This document shows positions 23,211 through 32,387 of a stretch of DNA of 64,000 nt, piece by piece. The stretch is taken from assembly GCF_009730915.1 (NCBI RefSeq), contig NC_052477.1, positions 620,001 through 684,000 of the forward strand, in the 5' to 3' direction. The notes under the pieces are model-generated. The model was not told where the DNA came from. It did no database searches and saw only the letters and a program-made list of their open reading frames with translations. Source of the DNA: Dioscorea cayenensis subsp. rotundata (taxonomy: Eukaryota; Streptophyta; Magnoliopsida; Dioscoreales; Dioscoreaceae). Each line of letters begins with the position of its first letter. Positions within the stretch are counted from its first letter, which is position 1. Both the position numbers and the translations under genes were made by a program.

Positions 23211-23282
23211 GCGTTTGTAGTCCAACGGTTAGGATAATTGCCTTCCAAGCAATAGACCCAGGTTCGACTCCCGGCAAACGCA
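23211..23282 (+). tRNA. tRNA-Gly (anticodon TCC)
   Basis: A 72-nt cloverleaf fits: acceptor stem GCGTTTG with CAAACGC, D arm GTCC...GGAT, anticodon stem ATTGC/GCAAT around loop CTTCCAA (anticodon TCC), T arm with TTCGACT, discriminator A. Box A and box B (GGTTCGACTCC) are intact. CAACAACA immediately upstream, a TATA-like GATATAATAA about 35 bp upstream and a T-rich run from 23289 fit plant Pol III signals. From memory of plant tRNA-Gly(UCC), the acceptor pair here is T-A rather than C-G, a compensated change, and one T-stem pair is mismatched (CCAGG/CCCGG). Confidence 0.93.
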
Positions 23283-23320
23283 CATTTGAATTTTCTTTTT
23301 TTGGTTTCAAATTGTTCTAT

Positions 23321-23329
23321 AATTTTTTT
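23321..23329 (+). repeat. left target-site duplication of MULE-A
   Basis: AATTTTTTT, repeated exactly at 30526-30534 on the other side of the element. Nine base pairs is the hallmark duplication length of Mutator-like elements. Confidence 0.9.
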
Positions 23330-23434
23330 GAGTAATGCTATATGAGGCGAAGAAATCACATGAACCAGCCACACGACTGATGTGGCTGGTGACGTGGATT
23401 TCCATTTTTAAATCGAAAAGTAAAAAGGGGAGAG

Positions 23435-23820
23435 GCGTTCTTTCACTTCTCTCTCTCGTGTCTCCATCATCTCCCACTCCCGGCCGTAGCTTCCCTCCGC
23501 CGCCGTCGATTCCATCCCCCGCTCCCCGCCGCTGTTTTCATCACCCTCTCCCGGCTCCCCGTTCGGGCGGCCGCGCTCTCCCCCGTTCCCCGGTCCCCAG
23601 CCCGGTTGCAGCCTCCCTCTCTCGTTCCCGACCGCTTCCATCCCCGCTCCCCGCCGCTGTTTTCATCACCCTCTCCCGGCTCCCCGTTCAGGCCGACGCC
23701 GCTCTCCCCATTCCCGGTCCCCGGCCGGTTCGACCTCCCTCTCTCGTTCCCGACTGCTTCCATCCCCCGCTGGGGAACGCTTCACTCCCCTGCTCCCGGT
23801 ACCCATACCCGCCAATTTTA
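23435..23820 (+). repeat. GC-rich subterminal repeat block of MULE-A (left)
   Basis: CpG-rich sequence with a tandem duplication of about 127 bp (starting near 23510 and 23637). Each copy contains CTCCCCGCCGCTGTTTTCAT and TCTCTCGTTCCCGAC. Related blocks lie in inverted orientation at 29930-30420. Overlapping open frames on both strands here are by-products of base composition. It may act as the transposase promoter or as transposase-binding arrays; this is inference. Confidence 0.8.
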
Positions 23821-24270
23821 TAAATTTAGAAAATTTATTTATTTTTTCCTAGTTAAACTAATCTTAATTTAATCATCATGACCTCTTTATAAACCAAAAT
23901 ACTTGTAAAACCAAAAAATTCTGATTAGTATTGTGCAGGTGCAGGAAAACAGAATTAGTTACAAGTATTACCAAAAGTTTTTTATTAGTATTGTGTAGGA
24001 AACATAATTAATTACAATTATTGTGGTTTTACAAGGAGATCATTGTAGGTGATTAAGTTTGTACTTATTATTTTGGTTTATAAAGAGATTATGGTGGGTG
24101 ATTACGCTTATACTTATTATTTTTGTTTATAAATAGATCATGGTGGGTGATTAAATTTATATGTTGTAAAAAAAAAATGTGAGTGTTTATTGCTTGTTTA
24201 ACTTGTAAATTTATTGTTTGTCTAATTTGTGTTTCTAATTTGTGTTTAGAAGTATACTTAAAGCAAGAAC

Positions 24271-26767
24271 ATGGAAGAAGTGATACTTGGGTGTTATGAG
24301 CAAGGAAATAATGATGTCGAAGTTGGATGTTCAAGTTATGAAATACATGGCAAAGAAAAACCGGTAGATTTGGATTTAGTTGAAAATATTGTGCCGGAGG
24401 CCGGTATGATACTTGACTCCGAAGAAGAAGTTTATGAATTGTATGTCAAGTATGCGCGGCATGAAGGGTTTGGCATCACCAAAAAAAGCACAAGATTAGG
24501 TGATGATGAAAAACTGAAATATTACACGCTAGCATGTTCAAGAGGTGGCAAACGAATATCTACTTCAAAAAACTCCTTCAACCCAAGGCTATCTACTAAA
24601 GTAAATTGTCCGGCGAAGATTAATGTCATTGTTAGCAATAATGGGAGATTTACCATTTCAAGTGTCAATTTAGAGCATAATCATGCACTTAGCCCAAAAA
24701 AAGCTCGTTTCCAAAAGTGTAATAAAAACATTGATACATGTGTCAAAAGAAGGCTTGAATTAAACGACCAAGCGGGGATAAGCCTAAGCAAAAATTTTCA
24801 TTCCTTAGCTGTTGAAAGTGGGGGTTATGAAAATTTAACATATACTGAAAAAGATTGTAGGAATTATATTGCGAAAGCAAGGCAATTTAGGCTTGGTGTT
24901 GGTGATGTGGTTGCACTTGGAAAATATTTCTCCCGCATGCAACAAAGAAACACAGAATTTTTCCATTTGATTGACATGGATGAGGAAGGTCGTTTGAGAA
25001 ATGTGTTTTGGGAGGATGCGAGGTCTATAGCGGCTTATGAAGCTTTTGGTGACATAATTTCCTTTGATACAACATACTTGACAAATAAGTATGACATGCC
25101 ATTTGCTCCGTTCGTCGGTGTAAATCATCATGGGCAAACGGTATTGTTTGGGTGTGGTTTATTGTCGAAGGAAGATACAGAAACATATGTTTGGCTCTTC
25201 AAAACTTGGTTGGAGTGTATGTCAGGCAAGGCTCCTAAAGCAATTATTACAGACCAGTGTATGGCTATTCAGGGTGCAGTTAGATTGGTTTTTCCAAATT
25301 CTCATCACCGCCTTTGCCTTTGGCATATCATGAAGAAGGTTCCCGAGAAGCTTGGAGGTTTAAATGAATACAAAGCAATCAAGAAGATTTTGAAACGCAT
25401 CACGTATGAAGTAGTGGATACTCAAGAGTTTGAAGACACGTACTTGAAGATGATGGCGGACTATAACATTAAGAGCAATGAATGGCTGAATTCTCTATTC
25501 AAAATTCGTGATCGTTGGGCTCCAGTTTATGTTAGAGGCATATTTTGGGCTGGAATGTCTACCACGCAAAGAAGTGAAAGCGTTAATGCATTTTTCGATG
25601 GTTATGTTGGTCCGACGACTTCATTGAAGCAGTTTGTTGAGCAATATGATAATGCCTTGAAAAGTAAGATTGAGAAAGAGAACAAAGCTGATTTTGCTTC
25701 ATTTAACTCATGTTTTCCATTGATCACTGATTGCTATTTTGAGAAGCAACTTCAAGAAGCATACACAAATGAGATTTTTAAATTGTTTCAAGATGAGTTG
25801 CGAGGGATGATATATTGCAATCTTACTATCACTGGTGTGCATGGGGCAGTCTGCTCATTTTCAGGTGTCTGATGTTGTCAAAGGGAAAGAAAGTGCATTC
25901 AGAAAACAAGTGGTATATAATGTTTACACTAATGAGGAAGAATTTGACATTAAATGCTCTTGTCAGCTGTTTGAGTTCAGGGGGATTATTTGTAGGCACA
26001 TTTGCAAGGTGCTTATTGAGAAGAATGTTAACGACATTCCTTCTAGGTACATTTTACCACGATGGAGGAAGGACATCAAACACATGCATACATATGTACA
26101 GAATTGTTATGATGACCCACAGACCAATGGTGAGAAACTGCGGTACAATAAATTGTGTTCTCATTTTACTAAAGCCGCAGAACTTGGAGCAATGTCAGAT
26201 GACAAATACATGTCCTTGATAAAACATGTGGACGAGGCAATTGAGAAGTTGATGGACAACACAACTTGCAAGGAAAACTTTACACATACGTTGTCGGAGG
26301 CGACTAATGTGCCACACCAAAAATTTCTCACCCCTTTAAAGGTGCGGAGCAAGGGTCGTCCACCATCTAAGAGGAAGAAGTCAAAAGTTGAAGAAATAAT
26401 AATCAAAAACAAGAAAAAGGTATGTTAATGTAGTATCATATCCATTACGGCCTTAGTTTTTTTTGTTTTTGAATTTTTTTTATTTGATGGTGTAACATCC
26501 ATGTTATTATTGGCAGAAGTCACAATCAAAGGGAGATGCATTAGCTCAAAGAATTATACAAGATGATCATTGCACACAAGAGAGTGTGGTAATTCTCTTG
26601 TAATTCTCATTAATGTCCAACTTACGTATTTGAATCATTTAATTTTAAGTAATGATTTATTTGTTTATAATCTCTTTTCTTAGGTGAATTCAAATTCTAT
26701 ATCGATCAATCTGGACATGCATCACAGCTCGTCTTTAGGTTTTACAAGCCAATGCAATGAGCTCTGA
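24271..26767 (+). CDS. FAR1-type Mutator-like transposase
   Basis: Three exons (24271-26419, 26517-26588, 26684-26767) encode about 767 aa. In order: a FAR1 DNA-binding domain (YVKYARHEGFGITKKS at about 58-73, SVNLEHNHALSPKK ahead of 150); the MULE transposase core with catalytic aspartates in SFDTTYLTNKYDMPFAPFVG and IITDQCMAIQGAV, then HRLCLWHI; and a SWIM zinc finger (CSCQLFEFRGIICRHICKVL). The tail is basic (KGRPPSKRKKSKVEE). Such proteins bind the element ends and move it; relatives were domesticated as FAR1/FHY3 light-signalling factors. One surplus base in a GGGG run near 25848 shifts the frame ahead of QVSDVVKGKE. Apart from that it looks whole, and the element rather than the host appears to own it. 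Confidence 0.92.
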
Positions 26768-26988
26768 TTATGGTGAGTTGCAAGATGTATATATTTATTT
26801 TCGTATTTAATACTTAGTGATTAAGATTGTTGGTGATATGAAGTTGTGATGTATTATTCATTTTCACTTTTCAGGGAATCGTATTGAGGTGCAAGTTACT
26901 CATATATCGATCAATTTTTGTGTTCATATTCATGTTCATGCTCCTGGAGGAAAATCAGAAATTTCATGCTCACGTTCATGCTCATGTT

Positions 26989-27450
26989 ATAAGATTTTTG
27001 TGTTTGTTGCTTATGTTTGATGAAGAGATGGTTCATTTGAGTAGTGATGTATTTGTGTTCATGTTATAATGTTTGTTGCTTATGTTTGATGAAGAGATGG
27101 TTCATTTGAGTAGTGATGTATTTGTGTTCATGGTTCATTTGAGTAGTGATGTATTTGTGTTCATGTTATAATGTTTGTTGCTTATGTTTGATGAAGAGAT
27201 GGTTCATTTGAGTAGTGATGTATTTGTGTTCATGGTTCATTTGAGTAGTGATGTATTTGTGTTCATGTTATAATGTTTGTTGCTTATGTTTGATGAAGAG
27301 ATTGTTCATTTGAGTAATGATGTATTTGTGTTCATGTTATAATGTTTGTTGCTTATGTTTGATGAAGAGATGGTTCATTTGAGTTATGATGTATTTGTGT
27401 TCATGTTATAAGATTTTTGTGTTTGTTGCTTATGTTTGATGAAGATAATT
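26989..27450 (+). repeat. 69-bp minisatellite inside MULE-A
   Basis: About six copies of a unit containing GTTTGTTGCTTATGTTTGAT and ATGTATTTGTGTTCATG. Twice an extra 33-bp half unit (GTTCATTTGAG...) is inserted, giving 69-33-69-33-69 spacing. The first and last copies share the variant TTATAAGATTTTTGTG, so the array is mirror-marked. No coding function is supported. Confidence 0.85.
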
Positions 27451-29588
27451 GATTTGTAATTTTAATTTGCAGTGATGAATACGAAAATTTGTCAATCCCC
27501 ATAGAGCTGGAGAAACCTGTGAAACCTCCACTACATAGAATACAACATGCCAAACATCTCAATCTAGTACATTTTTTCTCAAACTAAACATATTTGCTCA
27601 ATCTAGTACATTTATCATAATTCCTAGCAAAATAATGTTTATAGGAATGGAACATTTGTCATACAACATGCCAAACATATTTGCAGGAATGGAACATCCT
27701 TCTTGAAGCCAGTTTCCGCACATAAATTTCTGCACATATGCTCCCAGTTTCTGAACATCAGCTCCCAGTTTCTGAACATCCTTCCAGTACATGCTGCTAT
27801 CAGCTCCCAGTTTATGCACATAAATTTCTTACATCAGTCCAGGGGACTTACAAATGCTCTGGAAGCTCCCCATTGTAATGATGCATGTTGAAGTCCAGTG
27901 GCTCAAGAGCAATGTTTTAATGACATCGGCACATCTTTCCTGCGCATAGACCAAGCAGCTAAAAATTTGTCAAAATCAACTTAAAGTTCCATAGAGTGTA
28001 GTAAATAATTTTTCGAGAAACACAAGTCAAACAGATTACAAAAATTAACAAATTGATCAAAAGTAACAATATCTTCATCTTGTACATCAGCGGTACAAAC
28101 ATTTCATCATTTGTCTAACATAAATTGCTAGCAGCTAATACATACCACACTTACTAGAACAAACACCAAGAGAAAAAGTTTATCATACAATTGTAACAAT
28201 AAAAGCAATGTATTAATGACTTACAAAGTACAGATGAGCAAAAGAGGATACTGTCATCAGGATCAAAGGCCAAAATCCCAATAGACAAAAAGTACCTAAC
28301 AACCTCTAAACCTCTCGATAACATATGTAAACAAATATAAGTCAAGATAATACTTTTTCAGCAGAACAATACTTTTACTAATTTTGGGTTGCTTGCCAGA
28401 TTACACACAAAAGTATCCTGCTTATTCAAGTTCAGTTCAAAGCAATAATTACTTCATCGAATAACCATCCAACAACCATATCAAACCTAGAGACCAATCA
28501 ACAGGTATGAACCAAGATCCACAATCTCCCTGAAAAAACCTGTCAGAGTTGATTAGCAAAAAAGAAAAAGGTAACAGTTCCATAGCTTATTCTATATATT
28601 CCACAATACTTGTTCATTCATACCCAACAAAAATTATATCTTTTGGAAAAACTCAGAAACAATTGCTCCAAATGGACAAAAATTTTACACATGAACCGAA
28701 CATAAGGTGAAGAAAACCAAGTCCAAACAACAAACACTCTACAATTCCTCAATGTAAGAAATTCCAATAATTCTAACCATCCTTTTCATAGTAATTGGAG
28801 CAAGACCTTGAAGGTTCAGGCCAAAATCTAAGATATCACAAATGGAACACTCAACTTGGAAAAAGGATTAAATATGATAAGTAAGAGTAACTAAAAAAAA
28901 AACATCAAAGCAATGCCTATAACTCAAAAGCACATATTGCAGCACTCTATATCCCATGTCACAAAATAAAGAAGTGTCACAGTAGATTAAATGAAAAATT
29001 AAAACTCAGAATTTTTTTTTTCGTTTTTGAAAAACAAAAAAGGATAAAGTGATAACCTACATGTAATTAACAAATTAAAAGTCAGAACTTGAATCAACTA
29101 TGAAACTCACCAAAACTCCATGAATTAACTACCGAAAGGCACTCAGATGATTCCAAATCCGCAACTCAAGTAACATGGCAATAAACATAAATCAAAGGGA
29201 GAACAAAATCAAATTCCAGGACACCTATGTTCCTTTGAATTGCAAGTGAAAACCATAATTTCATAAGAAAAACCTCAAATAGGGAACTTGCATGCTTGTA
29301 AGTCCCCGATGTCATTCCGATCCCATGCTACGTCCCACCTCCCTGCTCCCGACTATCTTCTCTTCCATCTGCGAGCTTTACATCAAACTTGATAGATATC
29401 AAGAAATAACAAAAGAAACAAACAGTTTAAGAAGAATAAAAAAAGGCTCGGATCTTGCCCCTCCTGTTCTTTTGCATGGATAAACATCGAATCAAGGGTC
29501 AGCAACTAAAGTTGCCACGCCACCCAATTTCTATACTCTTTTTATAGGGCAAATCATCATGGCCAAGACCATCATTACTAAAAGAGTA
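27451..29588. other. MULE-A interior, no recognised gene
   Basis: AT-rich. Near 27700-27830 the phrase CTCCCAGTTTCTGAACAT recurs three times with variants; this makes a repetitive minus-strand frame (VQKLGA units) that I do not regard as a gene. Some of this could be captured host sequence, but nothing recognisable remains. Confidence 0.5.
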
Positions 29589-29637
29589 GAGTAGTGCTAT
29601 ATGAGGCGTAAGAAATCACACGAACCCGACCCACATC
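29589..29637 (+). repeat. internal copy of the MULE-A terminus
   Basis: GAGTAGTGCTATATGAGGCG followed by AAGAAATCACACGAACC closely matches the left-facing tip of MULE-A (GAGTAATGCTATATGAGGCG). Paired with the right end at 30525 it would define a 0.94-kb unit nested in, or shared with, the larger element. Confidence 0.75.
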
Positions 29638-29885
29638 GATAGAAAGAAATACATGATGCAACAAAAATATATCAACCAACATAATTAAAACAGAGGCTCG
29701 ATTCTCATGAAATGATGTTCTCCCATCCTTCCTCCCTCTACTAACAATAACAAGTGGCGGTTGCCTACTAGGCCATCCAAGCCACTATGCAATCGTTAGA
29801 GAGACGAAGCGTGGATAGAAATTTTTAGGGCATCATTGCCTCCCTAGACTCGATTTCAAGCCGAGCCGGGCTTTTGTGCCAAGAA

Positions 29886-29889
<4 letters not shown>

Positions 29890-29919
<30 letters not shown>
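29890..29919 (+). repeat. (GA)n microsatellite
   Basis: About fifteen GA units at the inner edge of the right GC-rich block of MULE-A. Confidence 0.9.
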
Positions 29920-29920
<1 letters not shown>

Positions 29921-29929
29921 CTTCAAAGC

Positions 29930-30420
29930 CAAACGAGAGAGGCAGGCCTGGGAGCGGGGAGGAAGCGTCGGCCAGAACGGGTACCGTCATCGAGGAGGGA
30001 AGTGGCAGCCGGAACGGGTACCAGGAGCAGGGGAGTGAAGCGACCAAGAGCGGGGGAGTGAAGCGGCCGGGAGCGGGGGAGGGAAGCGGTCAGGAGCAGG
30101 GGCGAGAAGCAGTCGGGGGAGCGGGGAAGGGACGCGATGAGCGCAGAGAGGAGGCGGGCAACCCGGTCGGGGACCGGGAACGGGGAGAGCAGGCGTCGGC
30201 ACGAGCGGGAGCCGGGAGATGGTGATGAAAAACAAGGCGGGAGCTGGGGATGGAATCGCCAGCGGTGGAGAAGCCGGGAACAGTGCCCGGAGCAGTGGGA
30301 GTGAATCGCACGGAGCGAGGGAGGATGCGGGGCTTGAGCGGCCGCCGAGAGACCGCTGCCCTAATATTTCGAGAGAGAGGGAGAGGACCCCGAGAGTGAG
30401 AGAGATGCCCTAGTTTATTT
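29930..30420 (-). repeat. GC-rich subterminal repeat block of MULE-A (right)
   Basis: On the minus strand it reads as CCGCTCCCGG / TTCACTCCCC / GGTACCCG repeats, with TTTTTCATCACC and CTCCCGGCTCCCG phrases shared with the left block. It extends the inverted symmetry of the element beyond the strict terminal repeat. Open frames on both strands here are compositional. Confidence 0.8.
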
Positions 30421-30525
30421 CTCCCCTTTTTATTTTTTTCGATTTAAAAAGGAAATCACGCTACCGACCCACATCGGGTCGTGGTGGTCGGTTCGGTGAT
30501 TTCTTCGCCTCATATAGCATTACTC

Positions 30526-30536
30526 AATTTTTTTAT
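30526..30536 (+). repeat. overlapping target duplications of MULE-A and MULE-B
   Basis: The 11-bp AATTTTTTTAT contains the right duplication of MULE-A (AATTTTTTT, 30526-30534) and the left duplication of MULE-B (TTTTTTTAT, 30528-30536). The uninserted site would have read AATTTTTTTATAATATATAT. Confidence 0.9.
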
Positions 30537-32052
30537 GAATAATGCTATATTGTGCGAATAGCTTTGCCGAATTCATGACACGAATGAGGTGGCAGCCAGG
30601 TGTCATCCATTATTATCTCTCCTAATCAGCAACATTTAAAAAATAATAATAAATCAAGTCCTACTTCCTCTTTTCTCTCTTTGTCTTCACACCGCTGCCA
30701 TCTCACATCCCACGCTACCAAACTCGTCACCCGCCGTCGCTGCCGCCACCGACTTCGAGGAACCCCCATCACCTGTCCCCTACAAAAAAAACTATGGTCA
30801 CCCACGCCATCCCGTCTTCGCTCTTGCCCGCAAACGAACCTATCGCTGTCGTCACCGACGCCGATGAACTTTATCACTCGTCGCCCACAAACAATCCCTA
30901 ATGCCCGCGCCATCCCATATGTTTCTACAAGTTTTTTTTTTCTGCTTTGAGAATTATTTTTTCTTTTGTCTCTAATTCACAAATTGATAGAGAACATGCT
31001 GAACTATCAAGGACAAAATTTTCCTTTTTGAGGAAAGAGGCTCTTACTTCTTTCATTGAAGTGTTCTTTTCTTTAAATCAAGGTTTTAAATTCTTAATCC
31101 AAATATAGTGATTTTGATGAGTAATTGAAGTAATTCTAGTTAGTGAGTGATGAGTAAATATCAATTATGATGGTTTTGTAAATTACCTCAACTGTTTTAA
31201 ATTCAATTGGAAGTGTTCATCTAATGGTTGTTTATAAGAGTTTTATTGAGAGATAATGCACAGAAAAGCAACACACCAATGACCATCTCCACACTGAAAG
31301 CTCATTGGCAGAACTCACAAATAGTTAATAGTGAAATCATTATCATTACTAATCAATAGATTATTATTAATGAAATTATGTAAATCATACTTCATCTGCA
31401 AGCAAATCCCATAATGCATTGAAAATTCATTCAAAATGCTGATGTCAATGGAGGAACGAGTGGATCCAATTGCAAACAACACCATCTGAACAATTTCTAT
31501 GGTCATCCCTAAGAGAATGGTCTACATTATTCCACCCCACAATAGACACTTTGGCATCAACTTTCGGTGTGAGTATGTTTTTAAGAGAGATTAGAGAGAG
31601 TGACAGGGTGCGTTGGCCGGCGAAGATGCAGATGCAAACACAGACAAAGATGAAGACGAAGAAGAAGAAGAATATGGGATGGTGCGGGCGATAGGGTTTG
31701 TTTGCGGGAGACGAGTGATGGAGTTTGTCGGCGTCAGTGACGGCAATGATAGGTTCGTTTGGGGGTGAGAGTGAAGACGGGATGATGTGGGTGACCATAT
31801 TTTTTTGCGAGCGATGGGTGATGGGGGTTCGTCGGAGTCGGTAGCCGCAGTGACGGCGGATGACGAGTTTGGTAGCGTGGATGTGAGATGGTGATGATGT
31901 GAAGACGAAGAGAGAAGAGAGGAAGTAGGGCTTGATTTGTTTTTTTTTTTTAAATGTTGTTGATTATGAGAGATAATAATGGATGACACCTGGCTGCCAC
32001 CTTATTTGTGTCATGAATTCGGCCAAGCTATTCGCCCGATATAGCATTACTC
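30537..32052. mobile_element. MULE-B: non-autonomous Mutator-like element with long TIRs
   Basis: A 1.5-kb element with terminal inverted repeats of about 380 bp (30537-30920 and 31671-32052), roughly 85-90% identical by eye, and a perfect 9-bp duplication TTTTTTTAT (30528-30536, 32053-32061). The tips GAATAATGCTATATTGTGCG and GAGTAATGCTATATCGGGCG resemble the tip of MULE-A. The long repeats are C-rich and the central 750 bp is single-copy, AT-rich and without a transposase. It may be mobilised in trans by an enzyme like that of MULE-A; that is inference from the shared tip. Confidence 0.9.
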
Positions 32053-32387
32053 TTTTTTTATAATATATATCACTGCAAAATAATTATATTAAATTTTGCT
32101 GTAAAAACAGAAAATTAAGAATAAAAACCATCTGACAACGACATAAATAAAAATGAACTATAAAAAAATTCAAAATAAACAGGAAATAATTTTGCTATTT
32201 TTCAAGGGGCGCCAAGTAAACAATTTCACGCATTTAAATTTCCCGGGCTTTAGCCCACAGGCCTTTTAGCCATACAAAGCCCATTCCCATATTCGCCCAT
32301 TCTTCGCGAAGCTTCTACAACAAGAAAACACTACACGTTTCAAAGACCCAAAGGGCCATTTTCGTAATTTCACACCATTTCCCGCGA

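Follow-up and report, generated by a model that had tools for sequence, protein, structure and literature searches.

The singed-weak double P-element insertion of Drosophila combines two elements with one target duplication. P elements belong to another superfamily than elements A and B, the pair from yam that we describe here, and their duplication is 8 bp long.

Closer counterparts are found among plant MULEs, and the comparisons that follow draw on parts of the papers cited. The SaTar elements and autonomous SaTar-MULEs of guayule and rice are end-to-end, non-nested MULEs of different families, both coding and non-coding (PMC5907723). Our pair lies in a stretch of 64,000 nucleotides from Dioscorea cayenensis subsp. 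rotundata, hereafter the window (C7:620001-684000 in a host assembly of 584 Mb and 2249 contigs), and resembles them in its use of a simple-sequence site and in that no element interrupts another. However, SaTar elements are linked by microsatellites and often have flanks without a clean duplication in the portions of that report drawn on here, whereas the yam junctions have spacers of 3 or 9-11 bp and perfect duplications wherever these are delimited, which is at 7 of 9 junctions. The Ac-mMITEs of pineapple, which are likely derived from MULEs, are likewise clustered by adjacent, non-nested insertion, but in the available parts of their description they are short MITEs at (TA)n microsatellite targets for which no transposase-bearing partner was found (PMC8449440). 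The MuTAnT family of Medicago also unites coding with many short non-coding MULEs, prefers simple-sequence targets and makes 9-bp duplications outside perfect microsatellites; it differs in targeting TA microsatellites, and tip-to-tip pairs are not described in the sections of that paper used here (PMC4486113). Abermu, of barley and other plants, is a large MULE with 9-bp duplications and TA-rich targets, and a relative in Carex has the listed duplication TTTTTTTTA, although Abermu ends read GGG...CCC and its partial account does not describe tip-to-tip pairs (PMC9168764).

A further likeness concerns an additional tip inside element A. Ferguson and Jiang (2012, PMC3310237) described multiple-TIR MULEs that have an extra internal TIR without a duplication of its own, and one tomato element with a solo extra TIR shows transposase similarity. 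As far as the consulted parts of that study extend, a TIR similarity of at least 100 bp was required and in tomato only 1 of the 12 distinct solo-TIR elements had another copy. The inner tip of A is alike over about 47 bp, short of that 100-bp criterion, and, unlike the tomato solo TIRs, it is kept together with a fixed neighbouring block across diverged elements.

The window pair is a variant of the published side-by-side MULE arrays at microsatellites. To judge from the parts of these papers cited, earlier work already describes extra TIRs (PMC3310237), targets of simple sequence (PMC4486113) and MULEs in non-nested arrays (PMC5907723, PMC8449440). In the open-licence literature searched, and within the portions of it available to us, we did not find a spacer peak with overlapping clean duplications or a three-tip end common to a whole group. 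Matches to the exact tip sequence were unrelated by title, those to overlapping target duplications included no title on plants or MULEs, and none was recovered for a single target hit by a double or tandem insertion.

The paired elements of the yam locus

Element A (23330-30525, + strand, 7196 bp) is a transposase-bearing MULE with three tips, and has the 9-bp duplication AATTTTTTT on either side, at 23321-23329 and 30526-30534. Element B (30537-32052, + strand, 1516 bp) is a MULE without recognised coding, and is flanked by the 9-bp duplication TTTTTTTAT at 30528-30536 and 32053-32061. Both duplications are perfect, and they overlap by 7 bp inside the single 11-bp spacer AATTTTTTTAT that separates the tips of A and B (30526-30536); the duplications and the spacer are assigned no strand. 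The coordinates and letters given for these features in the initial annotation hold letter for letter, as does its ancestral site: deletion of both elements leaves AATTTTTTTAT followed by AATATATAT. Exact 9-bp identity at a spacing of 7196 bp occurs at 1 of 56,786 window positions, and at a spacing of 1516 bp at 2 of 62,466, the true one being included in each count. When the empty site was sought in the same genome with the right flank, only the locus itself and a stray 48-bp match were recovered. A tRNA-Gly(TCC) gene at 23211-23283 ends 37 bp ahead of the target duplication of A.

The terminal inverted repeats of A lie at 23330-23812 (+) and 30008-30525 (-). Their outermost 50-bp arms are 84% complementary, and inward of this arm the left repeat is GC-rich and broken by indels. 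A first transposase frame (24262-25872, +) contains FAR1 DNA-binding, MULE and ZSWIM RNaseH-like domains according to Pfam, and a continuation in a different frame (25811-26428, +) carries a SWIM zinc finger; the Pfam values are 4.3e-37 for MULE, 1e-15 for FAR1 and 2e-8 for SWIM. No relative of solved structure was found for the first frame. Because the gene is split over two frames, the window copy is frame-interrupted, which could be an assembly error. A is classed as a MULE by its MULE/MURA-type transposase, its terminal inverted repeats and a duplication within 8-11 bp. Among nine frames at 26.8-29.8 kb, none has a Pfam match at or above the curated cut-off that would indicate a captured host gene. 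The element also contains a minisatellite of 69/33-bp units (27001-27411, +), whose unit holds a tip-like word. We do not count these words as real tips, since they mostly have 2-3 mismatches and are taken as a single chance-level repeat unit; the likeness is probably due to chance.

Element B has inverted repeats of about 390 bp, at 30537-30926 (+) and 31666-32052 (-), in which 334 of 387 aligned bases are identical (86.3%). The one interior frame tested has no Pfam match at or above the curated cut-off. Its assignment to the MULEs comes from these long inverted repeats together with a duplication within 8-11 bp, found in the window and at four independent places.

The two elements had been called related MULEs, a description that holds mainly for their ends. 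When the tip of A was compared with the window (22 bp, both strands), the best matches were 22, 22, 20, 20 and 18 of 22, and the next was 15. Between A and B, 18-20 of the 22 outermost bp are identical, and a weak colinear stretch follows at about bp 42-81, beyond the shared tips. In one of four comparisons its score was reached by 12 of 2000 shuffles, and in the other three by 331, 412 and 242 of 2000. Judged by their sequences, A and B are MULEs with the common terminal sequence GA(G/A)TAATGCTATAT and little else alike. The autonomous/non-autonomous pair raised in the initial annotation, in which an A-type transposase would move B in trans, is conjectural, as clear likeness is confined to the tips and the transposase frame of this A copy is broken.

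Each element also occurs without the other. Near-complete B copies, each between perfect 9-bp duplications, are present at four independent places in the assembly (ATGTTGAAA, AATAAACAT, TTTTGACAA and TTATGAAAA, at two sites on C5 and one each on C16 and C1447), where the two C16 copies have identical flanks and are counted once. No second good tip was found in the 0.7-1.5 kb of flank examined beside these copies. On C14, the duplication of one copy is imperfect (7 of 9 bases), and for one C5 copy the left tip was not found in the stretch examined. Scoring of 37 among 759 candidates showed whole or partial matches to the transposase region of A, with 86-94% identity, at no fewer than 36 other places. 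Two whole copies of A have perfect duplications, TTTATTAAA at C16:19796029-19803084 and TTCATCAAA at C2:3352535-3359871, and the 0.8-1.4 kb of flank examined beside them contains no foreign tip of good quality. Given that A and B are each found without a partner and with 9-bp duplications of their own, they are separate transposons. The proposal of two separate insertions on one shared target is supported by these copies, and the pattern that was to have overturned it, A and B always together, does not exist in this genome.

Tip-to-tip junctions across the assembly

A search for a right tip followed after 0-30 bp by a left tip gave 8 junctions in the assembly, and a looser tip pattern gave 12, namely the same 8, one at C10 and three at C2, C11 and C19. 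The spacer measures 9-11 bp in seven of these 12, 3 bp in two, and 5, 28 and 29 bp in the others. We accept nine junctions, with spacers of 11 bp in the window, 10 bp at C4, C5, C21 and two places on C17, 9 bp at C6, and 3 bp at C10 and C13. Those at C2, C11 and C19 (28, 5 and 29 bp) were excluded by a post hoc judgement, because one or both tips are off consensus; the C10 junction was retained, though its second tip is off consensus, because a perfect duplication backs it. If all spacers from 0 to 30 bp are given equal chance, the concentration at 9-11 bp has a binomial probability of 5.8e-7 for the first pattern (7 of 8), 2.4e-6 for the accepted set (7 of 9) and 4.1e-5 with none excluded (7 of 12). 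A stricter 9+9 tip pattern gave 6 junctions, and its control at 31-60 bp gave 3, at 34, 43 and 52 bp; over the range 0-60, 5 of 9 fall at 9-11 bp (P 3.1e-5). Reversed-pattern controls gave no junction in the 0-30, strict, strict 31-60 or loose searches. The strict tips in the assembly number 440 (220 forward and 220 reverse), and all counts from these searches are minimum values. On C6, two tips that are identical in letters and orientation lie 36 bp apart (C6:2889767 and 2889803).

At these junctions the facing tips agree at 12-14 of their first 14 bp, and agreement drops to 9-19 over the 26 that follow. The closest facing tips are those of the C4 pair and of the C17 pair at 18.96 Mb (19 of 26), and the farthest are those of A and B (9 of 26). 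This divergence past the first 14 bp indicates that the members of a pair belong to different families or subfamilies. The pairs are non-nested, modular neighbours in the window and at the 8 other junctions, and because elements have landed back to back at several other places, the arrangement looks like a recurring habit of the group and not a one-off accident. The local preference or attraction suggested at the outset is supported in a stronger form, as junctions that recur with 9-11-bp spacers, mostly in A/T tracts.

Duplications were found for both members at 2 of 9 junctions (the window and C10), for one member at 5 (C4, C5, C6 and both on C17) and for neither at C13 and C21, so that 7 of the 9 have at least one member without a delimited far end. 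Every delimited junction duplication matches at 9 of 9 bases. The first element of the C4 pair is 464 bp long with the duplication TTAAAAAAA, and the far end of its partner is absent from the 2.7 kb examined. Elsewhere it is the second element that is delimited: 1006 bp with TTAAAAAAT at C5, 1212 bp with TTATATTAT at C6, 1003 bp with TTTTTTTAT on C17 at 17.59 Mb and 752 bp with TATTTTTTT on C17 at 18.96 Mb. Neither far end was found for the C21 pair. In the C10 pair, the first element has TTTTAACTA on both sides when the second is set aside, and the second (499 bp) has the duplication TTACTCTTT, which opens with six letters from the tip of the first. With these last 6 bp of the resident tip inside the later duplication, the order of insertion is fixed at C10. 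The strict-control match at 43 bp is the tip of a third element past the C6 pair, in locus L023 (C6:16657842-16660872), and this locus may be a cluster of three elements.

The inner tip of A-like elements

The initial annotation recognised the outer tips of A correctly and overlooked a third one, at 29589-29635 (+). This inner tip is oriented like the left tip, with 937 bp from it to the outer right tip. Beside it lies a conserved block of about 150 bp (29430-29588, - strand), which holds GGGCAAATCATCATGGCC on the + strand and is common to A-like elements, with 77-84% identity among four elements compared. The inner tip is a trait of the group and no peculiarity of the window copy: the same neighbouring motif accompanies it in 13 of 14 elements examined, although five of these were noticed owing to the inner tip and block themselves (window, C6, C13, and C17 at 17.59 and 3.09 Mb). 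For the element on C17 at 3.09 Mb, the outer right tip was not found. Four others were chosen on different grounds, namely the complete copies of A from C16 and C2, and the elements at C3:3567872-3574319 and C4:16932088-16939729, for which a strict search had given two outer tips without an inner one; inner tip and block are present in all four. Five more, chosen for having three tips in the right order, come from the initial 100 of the 440 strict tips, and the block is present in four of them but not in the element on C1 at 13.95 Mb. The inner tip is close to its own outer tip in the window, C2, C16, C6 and C17 (17.59 Mb) elements and less so in that of C13. A transposase stands beside the junction end in the window and at C13, the two inspected.

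An inner tip might have arisen by a nested, independent insertion. This was rejected, because the 9 bp before 29589 and those after 30525 are not duplicates and the same arrangement recurs in other elements. The C16 and C2 copies have their outer duplications, and their inner flank is the conserved block, with no duplication. In 5 of the first 7 elements inspected (window, C2, C16 and two on C17), the sequence ATCATTACT lies 2 to 15 bp ahead of the inner tip, and it is also found ahead of that tip in 2 of the 4 block-bearing elements picked from the strict tips; the exact sequence is absent from this position in C6, C13, C3 and C4. In appearance, ATCATTACT resembles a worn right tip. One or two tandem GAGTAA hexamers lie directly outside the inner tip in several A-like elements (L026, L067 and L070).

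Probable successive insertion and its alternatives

We consider it probable that A and B inserted successively at practically one staggered cut, and that the duplicated target is re-used recurrently, mostly in A/T tracts. Insertion of the first element would duplicate its 9-bp target and so leave a fresh target copy at each end. A later element would re-use one of these copies with a shift of 0, 1 or 2 bp, and the result would be tip-to-tip neighbours whose spacer equals 9 plus the shift. The spacer peak would then reflect re-use of the duplicated target, which might be favoured by transposases that recognise the shared tip, perhaps the same ones for A and B.

The composition of the spacers bears on this proposal. 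An A/T run of at least 6 is present in 5 of the 7 spacers of 9-11 bp versus none of 8 lone-element duplications (Fisher P 0.007), which are A/T-rich though they lack such a run. A preference for T tracts, which the initial annotation proposed looking for, is for this reason not supported as a general rule. The C21 and C6 spacers are not homopolymer tracts, a point against the proposal. The eight lone duplications come from four elements of the B family, two of the A family, and L037 and L048, the last of these an element with weak inverted repeats (18 of 30). From 20 stretches considered for the lone sample, 14 were left out in which no element with a duplication matching at 8 or 9 bases was delimited; of the remaining six, L037 and L048 entered the sample, L040 and L044 were excluded because their duplications match at only 8 of 9 bases, and L030 is a pair. 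L029 and the rest yielded no delimited duplication. Since 9-mers with an A/T run of at least 6 make up 1.95% of the window outside the elements, insertion confined to them would yield 0.64 pairs at 9-11 bp, assuming 2200 tips (5 x 440 strict tips), whereas 7 are seen. Tract preference by itself seems insufficient for the observed pairs, and some feature of a resident end or its neighbourhood probably helps.

One possible form of such help, though on balance we doubt it, is that a transposase bound to a resident tip would target DNA roughly one helical turn beyond it, irrespective of sequence; sequential insertion would stand in this case as well. Simple re-use predicts a modal spacer of 9 bp, whereas the observed mode is 10 (5 of 9 junctions), and the two junctions with spacers of 3 bp do not fit it, one of them having a later duplication that runs into the resident tip. 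Both observations favour insertion directed by the end, as does the excess of pairs over the random and tract-only expectations. Furthermore, among the 9 junctions the three-tip end faces the junction in 4 of 4 cases (window, C6, C13 and one on C17). However, three of these four were recognised by that very end, which happened to lie in the stretch examined, and a result of four in four has a two-sided probability of 1 in 8 even in the absence of this bias. The A/T-tract excess at the 9-11-bp junctions also favours target sequence, and the cases are few for a reading that derives from sequence comparison.

An extension of end-directed insertion, to which we give little credence, treats the three-tip right end as the fossil of a fused MULE pair and MULE ends as docking sites about one helical turn out. 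Resident ends of the tip group would attract other members of the group to that distance outside the tip, fused pairs could turn into composite elements, and the segment from inner to outer tip would be a ready-made mini-element of 0.6-0.95 kb. The basis for such a composite origin is ATCATTACT, with its likeness to a worn right tip ahead of the inner tip. The other strand of the block reads CTATAAAA in many copies, which we take to be TATA-box-like, and a leftward promoter would be a simpler reason for the conservation of the block.

Successive insertion also has to be set against two accounts that we regard as very unlikely. An A-bearing and a B-bearing haplotype could have been joined by recombination within the shared tract, and a crossover there yields exactly the observed string; even so, a double hit is still needed, plus a crossover within 11 bp, and the C10 pair is a true sequential insertion. 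It is similarly improbable that the pair is a coincidence surfaced by scanning much sequence. Transposons are many in large genomes and only striking cases get reported, but against this stand the nine junctions with their sharp spacer peak, the lack of any in the reversed-pattern controls, and a random expectation of 0.005 to 0.13 pairs at spacers of 0-30 bp (for 440 to 2200 tips). That A and B form one composite element moving with outer duplications only, as the TTTTTTT common to the outer flanks might suggest, is exceedingly improbable and already refuted in this genome, given that the outer 9-mers differ (AATTTTTTT versus TTTTTTTAT), each element has its own perfect duplication and both families are present elsewhere without the partner.

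With these junctions, one odd locus becomes a countable phenomenon, that of tip-to-tip MULE pairs with nearly fixed spacing. The three-tip end, being conserved, adds a second peculiarity that can be tested, given that the solo extra TIRs published so far seemed, in the parts of that work considered here, to be dead ends. Should either target re-use or end-directed insertion prove real, it would offer a route to non-nested transposon arrays and composite transposons, and spacer length would be a simple genome-wide readout of the process.
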